NCBI RefSeq assembly: GCF_900143625.1
Contig: NZ_FRFF01000200.1
Location: 1 to 64,000, forward strand
DNA length: 64,000 nucleotides
Direction: 5' to 3'
From: Nocardiopsis sp. JB363
Lineage (GTDB): Bacteria > Actinomycetota > Actinomycetes > Streptosporangiales > Streptosporangiaceae
Below, in pieces: positions 49,368-57,046 of this stretch. Numbering within the stretch: the first letter of the stretch is position 1; every line of letters starts with the position of its first letter. The notes under the pieces were generated by a model, which did not search any database, was not told the DNA's origin, and saw only the letters and a program-made list of their open reading frames with translations. Position numbers and translations under genes: made by a program.

Positions 49368-51056
49368 TCAGCGGGCGAAGCGACGTAGGACTCGACGGAA
49401 CAGGCTCGGGGTGAACCAGCGCAGCTTGCGTTCGGCGCGTTCGGCCCGTCGACGCATCCGATCACCCCGGTCGGTGGCCTGGCGCAGTTCGGCCTTCAGT
49501 CGCTCCGTCGACGCCTCCTTGCGGCCGGTGGGGGCCTTCTCCTCCAGTTCGGCCTCCTCCGGCCCCAGGGACGCCACGATGCCGGTCGCCGGCGCCCAGT
49601 GGATCCCGAACACCTCCTCCACCAGGTGGTCCAGGTCCTTGCCCGCGGCCAGCGGATCCAGGTGCCGGGCACGCTCGAAGGCGGCCACCCGCTCCAGTCG
49701 CAGGACCCCCTCGCCGGCCCGTAGCGCCCCTGGTAGCGGGGCGCACAGCAGACCGGCCCCGGACCGGTCACAGGTCTTGACGAGTTCGACCAGGGCGTCC
49801 GGGGTCGGCGGCGGCCCGGCCTCCAGGTACAGGCGGTACGGCACGCGCGGGTCGGTCTCCGGCGGTGACTCCACGAAGCGCACCCTCGGGTCCCCCCGGA
49901 AGGCCTCGTGCGCCAGGCGCAGGTCGAGGAACTCCTCGTCCAGCGGCGTGCGGCGGTCATCGTGCAGCCGCGACCACGGCCCCACCATCCACAGACGCAG
50001 GTCGGGGGTGGAGCCGCACAGCAGCGCCCCGGTGGTCTCGTCGACTTCCTCCAGGGTGCGTTCGGCCACGTCCAGGACCACGTCCACCAGCGGCACCTCC
50101 CACTGGCGTTCCGGCCGTTTGCGGCGCAGGTGGAAGTCGGGCACCCGGTTGGACACGAAGGGCATCCGATAGCGGGTGCCGGCGTCACGTTGCTCCTGCA
50201 TCTGGGATCGGCCCAGGTGCCAGCTACTGCTGTCCAAATCGGGCACGAACACCGCACCGCGCTGGGCCAGGCGGTGCCCGAACTCGCTGTCACCGCCCAG
50301 CACCATCTCGGGGTCCATGCCCCCGGACGTGACGTACAGGGCGCGGTGCAGCGACCCGGTGGCGCCGACGTAGACCTTGAACCCCTCGTGGCCCGCCGAA
50401 CGCAGCCGGTCGGTGCGGTCGATGAACCGTTCCACCCAGTGCGGGTCGGCGTTCTCCCTGTCGAAGAGCGTGTCGCCGCGGCCGGCCGCCACCTCCTCGT
50501 ACACGTACTCCGGGACCATCGCCGAGGGGTCGAAGTCGACGAACAGCTTGTGGCCCAGCACCACCGCGTAGTCGACCTCGTGGTGCCAGCGCAGCTGCGA
50601 CTCCACGTGCTCGCGGTGGACCAGCATGTCCGCGTCCAACCGCAGGATCACCTGGCCCGACGCGGCGGCGACGCCGGTGTTGACGGCGTGCGCCGATCCC
50701 CACCCGCCTTCGGCGGACCGGATGATCCGGGTGTTCTCGGGTCGCACCCGTGGCGGGGTGAGCGGTTCGGGGCTGCCGTCGTCCACCACGATCACCTCCG
50801 TGAGGTGCGCCGGGTAGCTCTGCGCGGCCAACGACGCCAGCACCAGGGAGAGCTTGTCCGCCCCACCATGCGCCGGAATCACCACGCTCACCGACAACGT
50901 CGGCGTCCACTCCCCCAGGTCGGGGACGTCCAGCACGGCGTAGTCGTTGCGGTGGATCCGAGGCTGTGCGGGCGGCCCGTCCTGGGGTGGGGCGGCCTCG
51001 ACCAGCGGTGACGGTCCGGTCGCGTCGTACGCGGAGGTGTTGTCTGCGGTGGTCAA
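49368..51056 (-). CDS. Family 2 glycosyltransferase, copy 1 of duplicated B gene
   Basis: 562 residues from TTG 51054-51056, whose TTGA overlaps the stop of the upstream partner; GGGAGG lies 6 nt before it. GT-A fold near residues 53-300: SVSVVIPAHGGADKLSLVLASLAAQSYP, VIVVDDGS, LRLDADML (DxD-like) and LGGDSEFGHRLAQRG. A C-terminal half of unknown nature ends in a basic helix RRAERAERKLRWFTPSLFRRVLRRFAR that probably sits on the membrane. No membrane helices. Nucleotide-sugar donor unknown. Paralogous to the gene at 53307-54983. Confidence 0.9.
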   Translation of the reverse strand: MTTADNTSAYDATGPSPLVEAAPPQDGPPAQPRIHRNDYAVLDVPDLGEWTPTLSVSVVIPAHGGADKLSLVLASLAAQSYPAHLTEVIVVDDGSPEPLTPPRVRPENTRIIRSAEGGWGSAHAVNTGVAAASGQVILRLDADMLVHREHVESQLRWHHEVDYAVVLGHKLFVDFDPSAMVPEYVYEEVAAGRGDTLFDRENADPHWVERFIDRTDRLRSAGHEGFKVYVGATGSLHRALYVTSGGMDPEMVLGGDSEFGHRLAQRGAVFVPDLDSSSWHLGRSQMQEQRDAGTRYRMPFVSNRVPDFHLRRKRPERQWEVPLVDVVLDVAERTLEEVDETTGALLCGSTPDLRLWMVGPWSRLHDDRRTPLDEEFLDLRLAHEAFRGDPRVRFVESPPETDPRVPYRLYLEAGPPPTPDALVELVKTCDRSGAGLLCAPLPGALRAGEGVLRLERVAAFERARHLDPLAAGKDLDHLVEEVFGIHWAPATGIVASLGPEEAELEEKAPTGRKEASTERLKAELRQATDRGDRMRRRAERAERKLRWFTPSLFRRVLRRFAR

Positions 51057-53164
51057 CGGTGGCCTCCCATAGTGGTCGGTGACGTCGTCGTGCCCGGCGT
51101 CCCGGGCACGCCCGGTCGCACGGAACCCTCGATGCGGGTTCGGACCGGCGTCGGTGTCGCGAGCAGGGGATCGTGTCCGCCGCCCATCGGCTCGGGTGCG
51201 CCCTCCAGCAGGGCGCTGGGCCGCCACCCGGACCACTGCTTACTGTTGCGGCGCAGGAAGTAGCCCATGTCGGCGCCCCAGGTGTGCCCTTCCCCCGCCC
51301 GACGCAGCAGGTAGCCCAGGCCGTGGGTGCGGAAGATACGACCCCCATTGCGGCGTACGGCCAGCAGCAGTTGGCTGTCGATCGCGCGGGGCAGCGGCCG
51401 GAACCCACCGACGGCGTCCAGCACGGACCGGTCGATGACGATCGTGCTGCCCACCACGTCCGGCGAGGGTTTCTCGGTCTGGTAGCTGCGCCACACCGTG
51501 ACGTCCAGTTCCTGTAGGTAGACCAGGTCCTGGGTGACGCCGACCAGGTCGGCGCTCGAATAGTGGCGGGCCATGAGCATGTCGGCGAGGTGGTCGGGGC
51601 CGTACCAGTCGTCGTCGTCCCACTTGGCGATGACCGTTCCCGAGGCACGGTCGGCGGCGTCGTTGAGGACGGCGCCGAACACCTGGTCCGAGGGGGCCTC
51701 GTGGACGGTGAGCGGGATGCCGGTGGCGGCGAACTCCCGCAACGCCGATCGCACCTGGGGCAGGTCGGCGGTGAACCCGTGCATGGCCAGCACCAGCTCG
51801 AAGCGGGCGCCTCGTTGGCGGGCGATCTGGGCGAGCGCGAAGCCCACCAGTTCCGGCCGGCGGGTGCAGAGCATGACCGTGACCAGGGGTTCGGATGGGA
51901 GCGGGACCCCGGCCCGGGTGGCCAGGGCACGCCAGCGGACCGACTGTGAGTGGGTGCCCAGGGCGGCGCGACGCAGCCGGACGCTGTGCTCCTCGCGGGT
52001 GAGGGGGTCGGCGAGCTCCCACTCCTCCACCGATGCGAGCAGCTCGACGAGCGGATCTCCGAGATCGGCCGCCCACGGGGGGACGGGCCGACCGATCAGG
52101 GGCACGCCCCCGGCGGCCAGGGAGGCCACCGCGCGTACCGCGGCGAGCGGACCGGAGTGTCCGGTCCAATCGATCCGGACGCCGCGCAGGTACCGGAGCC
52201 GGCCGATGTCGAGGTCGGTGACCGTGCCGTCCTCGGGCAGGACGCACAGCACCCTCTTGCCCTCCATGACGACGGCGCGGTCGCCGTGGGCGGTGAGGTC
52301 GCCCATGGGTCCGCCGGTCTTCTTGGTGAAGCCGATGGGGTTGACGAGGTACTCGTCCACGGGTGGGACCCGGTGCGGGTCGACCTCCCCGGCCCTGGGC
52401 GGAACGGTCCTCGTGAGGGAGGACCAGGTGCGGCCCGTGGTCGCCGAGGTGTCCAGGTGGGGGACGGCGGGGTCCTCCCAGACGGGAAGACCCACCTCGT
52501 CGGTGCGCAGGACCAGGTCGGACTTGGGTGAGACCCGGCGCAACGGGACCGGTCCGGTGGCGCTGACCCCGGTGGTGGCGATGTCGCCGGGCCGCCACAG
52601 GGCCCCCTCGTTTCCGTGGAGACCCACCAAGGGAACGGGGCGTCGGCTGCGGCGTCCCCCTCGGACTCCGTGCAGGACGCAGTCCATGGCCAGGGCGGTC
52701 TCGACGGAGTTGGGGAAGAAGAGTTCGCACACCCAGCCGCGCTTGCCCGTCCGACGCACGCGGGCTTCGAGGAGGTCGTTCCACTCGTCGATGCCGGGGG
52801 GCGAGGGCAGAAGCGGCCCTTGGTGGCCGGGGGTGTCGACGACGGCGACGACCAGGTGCACGGTACGCGGCAGCGCGGTCGCCGTGGTCAGGACACGTCG
52901 CAGGTCGGTGAGGCTGGCGGCCAGCACGACGACCAGTCCCGCGGTCCCGGTGCCCTCTTCGGGGCCGCCGCTCTCGTTCTCGACGTCCGCGACCGATACC
53001 AGGTCGCCCATCCGGTGGGCGTCCAGGTCGATCAGCCGGTCGCCGGGCCGAAGCCTGAACCCCGCCAGTTCGCGCCTGGTCGTCGTCGGATCACCGGTGT
53101 GACAGAGGACGGCGGGTTCTTCACCGCGGATACGTAGGGCCTGACGGACGACAGAGGTGATCAT
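51053..53164 (-). CDS. Two-part protein with C-terminal GT2 domain, copy 1 of duplicated A gene
   Basis: 703 residues. The first 410 or so form a domain I do not recognise, with segments such as KRGWVCELFFPNSVETA and RWRALATRAGVPLP. The rest is a family 2 glycosyltransferase: LVTVMLCTRRPELVGFALAQIARQRG, the acidic metal site IAKWDDDDWYGPDHLADM, and the acceptor part VDAVGGFRPLPRAIDSQLLLAV. The C-terminal 50 residues are Pro/Thr/Gly-rich. Coupled to the B1 gene by TTGA. Paralogous to the gene at 54980-57046. Confidence 0.87.
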   Translation of the reverse strand: MITSVVRQALRIRGEEPAVLCHTGDPTTTRRELAGFRLRPGDRLIDLDAHRMGDLVSVADVENESGGPEEGTGTAGLVVVLAASLTDLRRVLTTATALPRTVHLVVAVVDTPGHQGPLLPSPPGIDEWNDLLEARVRRTGKRGWVCELFFPNSVETALAMDCVLHGVRGGRRSRRPVPLVGLHGNEGALWRPGDIATTGVSATGPVPLRRVSPKSDLVLRTDEVGLPVWEDPAVPHLDTSATTGRTWSSLTRTVPPRAGEVDPHRVPPVDEYLVNPIGFTKKTGGPMGDLTAHGDRAVVMEGKRVLCVLPEDGTVTDLDIGRLRYLRGVRIDWTGHSGPLAAVRAVASLAAGGVPLIGRPVPPWAADLGDPLVELLASVEEWELADPLTREEHSVRLRRAALGTHSQSVRWRALATRAGVPLPSEPLVTVMLCTRRPELVGFALAQIARQRGARFELVLAMHGFTADLPQVRSALREFAATGIPLTVHEAPSDQVFGAVLNDAADRASGTVIAKWDDDDWYGPDHLADMLMARHYSSADLVGVTQDLVYLQELDVTVWRSYQTEKPSPDVVGSTIVIDRSVLDAVGGFRPLPRAIDSQLLLAVRRNGGRIFRTHGLGYLLRRAGEGHTWGADMGYFLRRNSKQWSGWRPSALLEGAPEPMGGGHDPLLATPTPVRTRIEGSVRPGVPGTPGTTTSPTTMGGHR

Positions 53165-53306
53165 CGGGCAACCTTGAACGTGGCGGGCGTGTGAGACCCG
53201 TGACGACGGGTCGAACCCAGAGTGCCATATTGATTACCCTATGTGATCTCCGCGAGCGGTGTGTCGCCGGGGCGGGCACGACCCACGCGCCCGCCCCGTC
53301 CCGGTC

Positions 53307-54983
53307 TCAGCGAGCGATACGGCGCAGCAACCGCTGCCCCAGGCCCGGGGTGAACCAGCGCAGCTTGCGTTCGGCCCGCTTGGCGCGCGCCCGCTGCCGG
53401 TCGGCATCGACCAACGCCTTGTCCAGACGCTGTTGAAGGACCTCCGCGCTCGGCTGCGAAGTCTCCTCGACTTCCTCCTCCACCGCGATGAACCGCTCCC
53501 CCGGCATCCAGTGGGTGCCATGGGTCTGCTCGATCACCTGGTCCAGCTCCTTGCCGGCCACCTCGGGTTCCAGGTGGAGGGCGCGGGCGAAGGCGGAGGC
53601 GCGCTCCAGACGCAGCACCCCGTCGGCCGCCCGGGTGGCGCCGGGCAGGGGCGCGCTCAGCAGTCCACAGCCCAACTTGTCGATCTCCTTGATCAGATCG
53701 GCCACGGCCGTGTCGGTCAGGGTGGGCCCGGCCGCCAGGTACAGGCGGTACGGCACCTTCGAGTCGGACCGCGGCGGCGACTCCACGAACCTCACCCGGG
53801 GATCGCCGCGGAAGGTCTCGTGGACGAGACGGGCGTCGAGGAGCTCGTCGTCCAGCGGGGCACGGCGATCACCGTGCAGCCGCGTCCACGGTCCCAGCAG
53901 CCACAGGCGCAGGTCCGGGGTGGAACCCGACAGCAACGAGGAGACGGTCGTGTCGACCTCCTCCAGGGTGTGGTCGGTGGTGTCCACGACCACGTCCGCG
54001 AGCGGCACCTCCCACTGAAGGTCCGGGCGCTTGCGGCGCAGGTGGAAGTCGGGCACCCGGTTGGACACGTACGGCATCCGGTAGCGGGTGCCGGCGTCGC
54101 GGCGGGTCTGCATCTGGGTACGCCCCAGGTGCCAGCTGCTGGTGTCCAGGTCGGGCACGAACACCGCGCCGCGCTGGGCGAGACGGTAGGCGAACTCGGT
54201 GTCGCCGCCCAGGATGAGCTCGGCGTCGAGCCCTCCGGCGGCGTCGAACAGGTCGCGGTGCAGCGACCCGGAGGCGCCGATGAACACCTTGTAGGCGAGG
54301 CGCCCCGCGGTGCGCAACCGGTCGTGCTGGTTGATCAGGCGCTCGATCCAGTGCGGGTCGGCGGTCTCCCTGTCGAAGAGCGTGTCGGCACGGCCGGCCT
54401 CGACCTCCCCTCGCACGTGCTCGGGGGTCAGGGCGGTGGGGTCGAAGTCGACGAACAGCTTGTGTCCGAGGACGGCGCCGTAGTCGATCAGGTGGTGCCA
54501 CCGCATCTGCGACTCCACGTGCTCGCGGTAGACGAGCATGTCCGAGTCCAGCCGCAGGATCACCTGGCCCGACGCGGCGGCGACGCCGGTGTTGACACCG
54601 TGCGCCGATCCCCACCCACCGGGAGCCGAGGGGATGACGCGGGTGTTCTCCGGGTGGACGGTCGGCAGGGCGAGCGGTTCGGGGCTGCCGTCGTCCACCA
54701 CGATCACCTCCATGAGGTGCGCCGGGTAACTCTGCGCCGCCAACGACGCCAGCACCAGGGAGAGCTTGTCCGCCCCACCATGCGCCGGGATCACCACGCT
54801 CACCGACAACGTCGGCGTCCACTCCCCCAGCGGCGGCGGGGTGAGCACCGAGTAGTCGTTGCGGTGGAGTCGAGGCTGCTCGGACAGGTCCACCGCCCCG
54901 CGCGGCAGTACGGGCACGGTCTCCGCCGGCGTCACGGTCGGCTCGGTGATCGAGGCGACGGTGCGCTCTTCGGTACTGGTCAA
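53307..54983 (-). CDS. Family 2 glycosyltransferase, copy 2 of duplicated B gene
   Basis: 558 residues from TTG 54981-54983 in a TTGA overlap with the A2 stop, preceded by GGGGGA. Same layout as the B1 protein: EWTPTLSVSVVIPAHGGADKL, VIVVDDGS, LRLDSDML, LGGDTEFAYRLAQRG and the basic end RAERKLRWFTPGLGQRLLRRIAR. The N-terminal 35 residues and the tail differ most from B1. Part of the gene is nearly identical in DNA to B1. The gap to the next gene (53165-53306) shows no clear promoter. Confidence 0.9.
   Translation of the reverse strand: MTSTEERTVASITEPTVTPAETVPVLPRGAVDLSEQPRLHRNDYSVLTPPPLGEWTPTLSVSVVIPAHGGADKLSLVLASLAAQSYPAHLMEVIVVDDGSPEPLALPTVHPENTRVIPSAPGGWGSAHGVNTGVAAASGQVILRLDSDMLVYREHVESQMRWHHLIDYGAVLGHKLFVDFDPTALTPEHVRGEVEAGRADTLFDRETADPHWIERLINQHDRLRTAGRLAYKVFIGASGSLHRDLFDAAGGLDAELILGGDTEFAYRLAQRGAVFVPDLDTSSWHLGRTQMQTRRDAGTRYRMPYVSNRVPDFHLRRKRPDLQWEVPLADVVVDTTDHTLEEVDTTVSSLLSGSTPDLRLWLLGPWTRLHGDRRAPLDDELLDARLVHETFRGDPRVRFVESPPRSDSKVPYRLYLAAGPTLTDTAVADLIKEIDKLGCGLLSAPLPGATRAADGVLRLERASAFARALHLEPEVAGKELDQVIEQTHGTHWMPGERFIAVEEEVEETSQPSAEVLQQRLDKALVDADRQRARAKRAERKLRWFTPGLGQRLLRRIAR
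54673..54830. repeat. Nearly identical block shared by the two B genes (partner 50761-50918)
   Basis: By hand alignment, 158 bases here match 50761-50918 with 4 mismatches. It codes for the VVIPAHGG to VVDDGSPEPL start of the GT2 fold. Sequence 3' of it on the plus strand (N-terminal coding part) diverges at once. Confidence 0.7.
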
Positions 54984-57046
54984 GATTGTCCCCCGGGGTG
55001 CGTCGTGGCCATGACCGGCTCCTCGTGGACCTCGGTCGGTCCACCCAACGGGTGAGGTTCGCCTTCGAGCAGGACGCTCGGTCGCCAGCCGGACCACTGT
55101 CGTGCGTAGTTGTGCAGGAAATAGGCCATGTCCTCGGACCAGGTGTGTCCGCCGCCGGTGCGGCGCAGCACGTACCCGAGCCCGTGGGTGCGGTGGATAC
55201 GCCCCCCACCCCGGGACACGGCGATGAGCAGTTGGGTGTCGATGGCGCGCGGCAGCGGGCGGAAACCGCCGGTCTCCTCCAGCACCACGCGGTCGGTGAG
55301 GATCGTGCCTCCGGCGATGAACCGGGTGGCGGTCTCGGACTCGCGACTGCGCCACACCATGAGGTCCACCTCCTGGAGGTAGACGAAGTCCTGTCCGGTG
55401 CCGACCAGCTCGGCCCCGGAGTAGGTCCGGGCGAGCACGAGGTCGGCCAGGTGTTCGGGCCCGTACCAGTCGTCGTCGTCCCACTTGGCGATGAGGTCAC
55501 CGGAGGTGCGGGCGACGGAGTCGTTGAGCACCGACCCGAAGATCTGGTCGGCGGGGGCCTCGTGCACGGTGATCGACAGCCCGGTGTCGCGGTAGGCGTC
55601 GATCGCCGAAGCCACCTCGGGTCGGTCGGCGGTGAACCCGTGCAGGGTCAGCACGGTCTCCAGCTCCACCCCGCGCTGACGGGCGATCTGGGCCAGCGCG
55701 AAGCCGACCATCTCGAGACGTCGGGTGCACAGGATGACCGAGACCCGGGGGGCCGGCGGCAGCGGAACCCCGGCCTGCTCGCCGAGGGCCCGCCAGCGTG
55801 AACGCAGACCGTGCGTGTACAGGGCGGCGCGGCGCATCCGAATACTGAGTTCCTCACGGGCCAGCCGGTCGGTGAGGTCGGCGTCGGTGGCCCCGGCCAG
55901 GAGTTCGCTCAGCGGTGCGCCGAGCCCGGAGGCCCAGGAGGGCACGGGGCCGGCGACCAGGGGCACGCCCCCGGCGGCCAGGGACGCCACCGCGCGCACG
56001 GCCGCCGTGGGGCCGGTGTGCCCGGACCAGTCGACGCTCACCCCGCGCAGGTGGCGCAGCCGGGTCAGGTCGACGTCGGTGACGGTGCCGTCGGCCGCCA
56101 CCGCGACCAGGTCCTTGTTCCCCTCGCGGACGACGGCGCGGTCCCCGTGCACGGTGAGATGGCCCAGGGGCCCCTTCTCGGCCTTGGAGAACCCGGTGGG
56201 GTTGACGGTGGTCTCGTCGATCGGCGCCACCAGGTCGGTGGGGGCGGCCGTGACCCGCGCCGCCGAGCGCCCCGCGGCGACGACGTGCGCGGCGCGGTCT
56301 CGGCCGTCGGGTCCGGTGAGCTCTTCCCAGGCGTCGGCCTTGGTGGGCGCGCGGTCCAGCACCGGAACGGTCTCCTCGTTCCATACCGGGTCCGCGCCGT
56401 CGTGCACGCGCAGGGACAGGTCGGCCACGGGGGTGACCCGGCGCAGCGGGACCGGACCGGTCGCGTCGACACCGTGCGCGCCGGTGTCACCGGGCCGCCA
56501 CAGCGAGGACTCGGGGCCGTTGAGGGCGGTCAGGGGCGCCACGACCGGGCCGCGGCGGCGGCCCCGGGTTCCGTGCAGGACGGCGTCGAGAACCTGGGCG
56601 GTCTCGACCGCGTTGGGGAAGAAGAGCTCGCACACCCACCCGCGCTTGCCCATCCTCCGCACCCGCAGTTCCTGCAGGTCGCGCCATTGGCCCATGCCCG
56701 GTCCGGCCGGGACCGGTGGGTCCTGGTGGCCGGGGGTGTCCAGGAGGGCGACCACCACCTGCACGGCCCGGGGCAGGTGCACGGCGGCGGTCAGGGCCCG
56801 GTTCAGGTCGGTGGGGGTGGCGGCGACCAGCGCCACCAGCCCGGCGACGGGTTCCTCCTCGTCGCCCTCGCCGGAGCCGATCCGAAGCGGCTCGCCCAGA
56901 GGGTGGACTCCCAGGTCCACGAGCAGGTCCCCGGGCCGCCGAGGCTGTTCGGACACCTCCCGGAGGGTGTCGGCCCCGCTGTGGCAGAGCACGGCGGGCT
57001 CGTCGCCACGTGCGCGCAGGGCCTGCCGGAGGACAGTGGTGATCAT
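54980..57046 (-). CDS. Two-part protein with C-terminal GT2 domain, copy 2 of duplicated A gene
   Basis: 688 residues from ATG 57044-57046 (MITTVLRQALRARGDEPAVLCHSG). Same design as the A1 protein: an unknown N-terminal domain of about 400 residues (KRGWVCELFFPNAVETA, RWRALGEQAGVPLP) and a C-terminal GT2 domain (VSVILCTRRLEMVGFALAQIARQRG, IAKWDDDDWYGPEHLADL). The open frame to 57199 has no better start. It lies 71 nt downstream of the methyltransferase gene, likely one transcript. Confidence 0.87.
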   Translation of the reverse strand: MITTVLRQALRARGDEPAVLCHSGADTLREVSEQPRRPGDLLVDLGVHPLGEPLRIGSGEGDEEEPVAGLVALVAATPTDLNRALTAAVHLPRAVQVVVALLDTPGHQDPPVPAGPGMGQWRDLQELRVRRMGKRGWVCELFFPNAVETAQVLDAVLHGTRGRRRGPVVAPLTALNGPESSLWRPGDTGAHGVDATGPVPLRRVTPVADLSLRVHDGADPVWNEETVPVLDRAPTKADAWEELTGPDGRDRAAHVVAAGRSAARVTAAPTDLVAPIDETTVNPTGFSKAEKGPLGHLTVHGDRAVVREGNKDLVAVAADGTVTDVDLTRLRHLRGVSVDWSGHTGPTAAVRAVASLAAGGVPLVAGPVPSWASGLGAPLSELLAGATDADLTDRLAREELSIRMRRAALYTHGLRSRWRALGEQAGVPLPPAPRVSVILCTRRLEMVGFALAQIARQRGVELETVLTLHGFTADRPEVASAIDAYRDTGLSITVHEAPADQIFGSVLNDSVARTSGDLIAKWDDDDWYGPEHLADLVLARTYSGAELVGTGQDFVYLQEVDLMVWRSRESETATRFIAGGTILTDRVVLEETGGFRPLPRAIDTQLLIAVSRGGGRIHRTHGLGYVLRRTGGGHTWSEDMAYFLHNYARQWSGWRPSVLLEGEPHPLGGPTEVHEEPVMATTHPGGQS

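Follow-up and report, generated by a model that had tools for sequence, protein, structure and literature searches.

We analysed a 64,000-nucleotide stretch of Nocardiopsis sp. JB363 (assembly GCF_900143625.1, contig NZ_FRFF01000200.1, positions 1 to 64,000; further referred to as the window), in which two adjacent genes encoding GT2-type glycosyltransferases, here called A and B, are present twice in tandem. A and B form an old conserved unit, whose tandem duplication is placed by the protein trees at the base of the genus Nocardiopsis. Comparison of the copies further indicates recurrent gene conversion between the two B genes, confined to residues about 44–165 of the protein; this domain restriction is a new detail of the unit. 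Tentatively, with confidence slightly below even, we propose that A and B belong to a membrane-tethered two-enzyme module for the synthesis or extension of one cell-envelope glycan.

Organization of the tandem pairs

The initial annotation of the window had described two A–B pairs with TTGA at each junction, and the coordinates, gene order and protein identities confirm this. The reading frames of all four genes are open and lie on the minus strand, in the transcription order A-up (54980–57046, 688 aa), B-up (53307–54983, 558 aa), A-dn (51053–53164, 703 aa) and B-dn (49368–51056, 562 aa), corresponding to A2, B2, A1 and B1 of that annotation. A-up and A-dn are 58% identical (691 aligned columns), B-up and B-dn are 70% identical (532 aligned columns), and no likeness between A and B was detected by BLASTP. 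Such a duplication of the unit is far beyond chance. Upstream of the pairs, also on the minus strand, lie a methyltransferase gene, MT (58137–57118), and an acyltransferase gene, AT (60541–58466).

At both junctions the stop of A and the start of B share the four bases TTGA (54980–54983 for the up pair and 51053–51056 for the down pair, minus strand), with NTGA conserved in relatives. Four-nucleotide overlaps join 11 of the 40 co-directional neighbours in the window, TTGA occurring at these two only. A single overlap is thus ordinary, whereas the same overlap across genera is not.

Conservation of the A–B unit in relatives

Relatives of A were found in 93 of the 121 sampled genomes of the order Streptosporangiales. 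B was checked in 23 A-bearing genomes outside Nocardiopsis, picked for diversity and strong A matches, and in 22 of them it lies directly downstream of A on the same strand. Hence A and B homologues are not found mostly apart, which the initial annotation had named as evidence against its coupled GT2 pair; they are kept together across genera. The 23rd genome (G094) carries MT and A that look intact and B truncated to about 152 residues (L127:7342–7800), a natural loss of B while A remains.

Adjacency with a four-nucleotide overlap is observed in Nocardiopsis, Streptomonospora and Streptosporangiaceae. The overlap (ATGA, GTGA or TTGA) was present at all 25 up or single junctions examined and at 13 of the 16 down junctions examined; at 15 Streptosporangiaceae loci A ends in ATGA or GTGA, and the frame continues into B in at least 12 of them. 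What recurs is therefore the overlap and not its first base, which may be A, G or T. Given this variation and the abundance of four-nucleotide overlaps in the window, TTGA itself was rejected as a signal.

By A and B sequence the nearest relatives of the source strain are Nocardiopsis species, with A-up of N. listeri 91% identical. The order of genes in this genus is sodA, AT, MT, A, B, A, B, maoC. MT was retained at all 21 loci with both flanks visible, and AT is missing from six of them (L074, L079, L083, L086, L089 and L093), which rules it out as a core component. In the record of N. eucommiae (L090, CP074402) apparent frameshifts break AT, A and other genes; they are probably sequencing errors.

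Some Nocardiopsis carry a second A/B locus (L115:6185–13443 and L119:7538–14838) between serA and leuB, names that we read from the sequences of the flanking genes. It has the order small transmembrane (TM) protein, A, A, B, B, and its two A genes overlap by GTGA. In Streptosporangiaceae A–B stands beside hom (confirmed by Pfam) and thrC (read from the sequence), usually together with another B, and unrelated Methyltransf_11 methyltransferases adjoin several of these loci. Planotetraspora A–B loci (L101 and L107) adjoin homologues of AT and MT. In one other genus (L128) MT, A and B stand alone at a different location between other housekeeping genes, with MT directly before A–B.

Since A-A-B-B, A-B-B and B-A-B arrangements exist, a strict 1:1 partnership is not general, and the stoichiometric partners proposed initially did not hold up in this strict form. 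The two pairs of the window are also parted by a strong GC-rich hairpin just past the B-up stop (53251–53300, minus strand; −36.4 kcal/mol), which is terminator- or attenuator-like and has no T run. Hairpins lie between the two pairs in most relatives as well. They suggest that the pairs may be unequally expressed, with the reservations that finding such a hairpin is not rare in GC-rich DNA and that the comparison had no shuffled control.

B-like genes also occur without A. The source genome (7.07 Mb in 210 contigs) holds a third B-type protein, 37% identical and in a single copy (L114:9108–10784; G000:C165:140398–141774). This protein is single-copy in nearly all Nocardiopsis and its gene adjoins maltooligosyl-trehalose-synthesis-like genes, with no A nearby.

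History of the duplication

Trees of the A and B copies were built by a quick procedure with SH-aLRT support only. In the A tree, A-up and A-dn form separate genus-wide groups, with the single-pair Streptomonospora outside. The B tree is nearly the same, except that N. coralli is misplaced on a long branch. Both split the up and down copies at the base of Nocardiopsis, and the tandem duplication is placed there. This split rules out a recent duplication, the high local identity of B DNA being due to conversion. Only one pair is present in N. alborubida and in a record labelled Glycomyces fuscus, and it falls within the up group of both trees; the whole second pair was therefore lost there. The latter record (L075, Glycomyces fuscus TRM 49117) forms a tight group with N. 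alborubida and has full Nocardiopsis synteny, so that its label is probably wrong.

Gene conversion between the B copies

Identical DNA runs shared by B-up and B-dn within one genome reach 341 nt in N. alba, 250 nt in Nocardiopsis sp. TSRI0078 and 240 nt in sp. ATB16-24. The window has shorter runs, of up to 50 nt, and one stretch of 97% identity. The runs fall mostly in B codons about 44–165, the donor-binding half of the GT-A domain, which includes the DxD motif (54489–54854 in B-up; the partner region in B-dn, residues about 39–160, is 50577–50942; both on the minus strand). The DNA tree of these codons groups sequences largely by species, with 10 up/down label changes, no fewer than with shuffled labels, and the hypothesis that all down copies form one clade is rejected (p = 8.5e-7). 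In the tree of residues 180–495, sequences group by copy with two label changes, and p = 0.14 for a single down clade. Little or no conversion is observed in a group of three species (L080, L082 and L091). No conversion tracts were seen when A-up and A-dn DNA were compared.

Conversion thus keeps the donor half of B alike, in contrast to A and the remainder of B, which have diverged. It is therefore probable that both pairs use the same donor for B and differ subtly in the acceptor or in the step performed by A. We infer that selection for a shared donor lies behind the conversion; a mechanical bias toward the most similar stretch could contribute to the pattern. In one genome-wide survey, only 26 prokaryotic genes were reported to undergo recurrent concerted evolution, and glycosyltransferases are unmentioned in its main text (PMC6053082).

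The same data bear on a simpler explanation, in which the second pair is a dosage copy only and both pairs make the same product. The likeness of the B donor halves, the low number of fixed differences between copies (14 in A and 2 in B) and the several species that live without the second pair would all fit it. We nevertheless consider it improbable: the copies have formed separate clades since the base of the genus, A is only 58% identical between them, and the DNA of the acceptor half of A is about 65–86% alike between copies against 85–97% between species.

Domain structure of B and A

The initial annotation had assigned GT2 domains to both partners. The assignment is strong for B (PF00535, 56–69 bits with a cut-off of 23.3) and weak for A, where A-dn scores 27 bits and A-up, at 18 bits, falls under the cut-off. 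The predicted model of B (mean pLDDT 88) matches the chondroitin polymerase K4CP (KfoC) of E. coli K4 (PDB ID 2Z86, 2Z87) over both GT-A domains (residues 34–500, 417–422 residues aligned) with Z 29, the next family having 22, and a profile search with B retrieves the same K4CP chains (E 1e-30). Domain 1 has an invariant DxD at residues 146–148 and a conserved D261/E263 region, the catalytic-base region. The C-terminus is a basic helix that possibly associates with the membrane. By its predicted structure B is chondroitin-polymerase-like, with one GT-A domain bearing an intact DxD and a second degenerate one. Identity to K4CP is about 20%, and the DSD present in K4CP domain 2 (residues 519–521, PMC7826918) has no counterpart in B, where domain 2 lacks DxD in 50 of the 50 homologues. 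We therefore rejected the reading of B as a complete bifunctional K4CP. If a second working site exists, it would sit in A and not in B.

A, with a predicted model of mean pLDDT 86.9, ends in a GT-A domain (residues 432–655) with invariant K521, D523–D525 and H634–W636, and no close relative of it was found among solved structures. In distant homologues of A, GT2 is immediately preceded by PF13524 (CgeB-like glycosyl transferase), and the domain order of these fusions of CgeB-like (PF13524, DUF3880) and GT2 domains is the one that we read in A. Profile alignment puts residues 339–428 of A on the PF13524 region, with a probability of only 34%. We read A as an active-looking GT2 domain preceded by a CgeB-like region that is probably degenerate. 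The large domain of A, which had been listed as unknown, is partly accounted for as such a remnant, the first 270 residues lying outside any assigned family.

For both A and B, the better fold matches include TarS, TarP and RmlT, on which their GT-A domains superpose with Z 17–20. In a teichoic-acid explanation, A and B would decorate wall teichoic acid in the manner of these enzymes, each attaching one sugar to a polyol-phosphate chain synthesised elsewhere, and two decorations would result from the two pairs. Teichoic acids do vary among Nocardiopsis species, some having glycosylated glycerol phosphate (PMC6801904), a TagF-type polymerase gene is present in the source genome, and near A–B we recognised no polymerisation or export genes. 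Still, B fits the two-domain K4CP clearly better (Z 29 against 20), and such Z values come from the whole GT2/GT-A superfamily. The only TagF-type gene found lies on another contig (C200), linkage to such a gene being a supporting and not a strictly defining sign; A–B is not tied to a teichoic-acid locus and has another domain architecture. A single decoration also needs less than an obligate coupled pair plus anchor. On balance we regard this explanation as rather unlikely.

Putative anchor, methyltransferase and acyltransferase

MT (339 aa from ATG) is single-copy in the source genome. It has hydrophobic residues 10–62 forming an N-terminal membrane segment, a charged linker with coiled coil and a Methyltransf_24 domain (PF13578, 48.8 bits with a cut-off of 26.3). 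At A–B loci without MT its place is taken by a small TM protein of 105–147 residues. When the profile of these small proteins was compared with all called locus proteins, only small proteins and MT proteins scored above the inclusion threshold. The small proteins had themselves gone into the profile, and the match list contains some proteins twice; MT proteins matched with E 4e-21 (L124), 7e-11 (L128) and 1e-4 (window). Shared membrane and coiled-coil composition may give part of this signal, although it is in the coiled-coil part that the profile–profile match falls. Because homologues of the MT N-terminus stand at MT-less loci, what stays constant in the unit seems to be the anchor and not the methyltransferase domain. 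A defence system was also considered and dropped, the only PADLOC result being a weak match between the methyltransferase domain and mad2.

AT (691 aa) combines Acyl_transf_3 (PF01757, 86 bits) and SGNH (PF19040, 89 bits) domains and is accessory to the unit. It aligns full length to the NCBIfam model of SucT, the mycobacterial succinyltransferase of arabinogalactan and lipoarabinomannan (Rv1565c), with 457 bits, far under the equivalog cut-off of 1275. In contrast to SucT, it adjoins A–B in a genus without mycobacterial wall genes nearby, and no close relative of it was found among solved structures. Decoration by MT and AT, as initially suggested, stands in part: a methyltransferase is repeatedly near A–B and a SucT-like acyltransferase sometimes, AT being outside the core. 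In a genome of another family (G047, L117:4199–12451) a glycan cluster contains an A-like gene, a SucT-like AT, a second A-like gene, a GT4 gene and a UDP-glucose dehydrogenase gene; it may serve as a guide to the pathway of the A family.

The acyltransferase also bears on the possibility that the substrate of A and B is a small lipid or metabolite instead of a wall polymer, as for a glycolipid or a mycofactocin-like oligosaccharide. B weakly matches the mycofactocin MftF model in its GT-A domain (58–61 bits with a cut-off of 280), and a stand-alone unit with its own methyltransferase would suit a methylated oligosaccharide. The match spans only the common GT2 core, though, no partner enzymes of a metabolite pathway were found near A–B, and SucT, to which AT is most similar, has envelope polysaccharides as its substrates (PMC10503756). 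We judge this possibility to be remote, on a par with the dosage copy.

Proposed mechanism

In the envelope-glycan module that we tentatively favour, the TM/coiled-coil N-terminus of MT, or its small homologue, would anchor the two enzymes at the inner face of the membrane. Each of them would have one working GT-A site, with a different donor or linkage, and the second GT-A-like domain of B would be a non-catalytic surface for the acceptor or partner. Extension of the glycan would involve two different kinds of step, in the way that KfiA and KfiC, or both domains of K4CP, divide the work; by this analogy a repeating two-sugar polymer, as first suggested, is plausible. MT would probably O-methylate the product, and AT, where present, would O-acylate it. 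After duplication in the Nocardiopsis ancestor, the pairs would probably have kept one donor for B and acquired a subtly different acceptor or A step. That A and B act as a joint unit is supported by their being duplicated together and lost together in both trees. The position of MT directly before A–B at L128 and the AT homologue between two A-like genes in the L117 glycan cluster also speak for the module.

As a working analogue, the E. coli K5 heparosan synthase KfiA-KfiB-KfiC comes closest, in which KfiA and KfiC alternate on one chain and the accessory protein KfiB stabilises the complex (PMC12834895). A–B would likewise be two separate transferases on one chain with an accessory protein. 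The likeness is one of layout; unlike the K5 system, A–B has no recognised capsule export genes beside it, and its anchor is fused to a methyltransferase. A more specific form of the proposal is a split polymerase of an undescribed kind: a K4CP-like B without the second site, and a protein of CgeB remnant and GT2 supplying that site, would be membrane-tethered together, with the two duplicated complexes sharing a donor through domain-restricted conversion. We find this form possible if doubtful.

Several observations weigh against the envelope-glycan module. The unit sits at housekeeping loci (sodA-maoC, serA-leuB, hom-thrC), beside which we recognised no flippase, polymerase, ABC exporter or ligase, and the numbers of A and B genes vary among loci. 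With so few fixed differences, the copies may be functionally equivalent. For A, the CgeB-like assignment comes from distant relatives, PF13524 giving no match in A itself up to E = 10.

Implications

No described homologue or cluster was found in the literature, as covered by open-licence papers. The unit defines an uncharacterised glycosyltransferase module, with a proposed anchor-A-B architecture, that is present in most sampled Streptosporangiales. Its likely product would be a methylated, sometimes acylated, surface glycan. Conversion limited to the donor half of one partner offers a natural experiment on the regions of a glycosyltransferase that have to remain similar once it has been duplicated.

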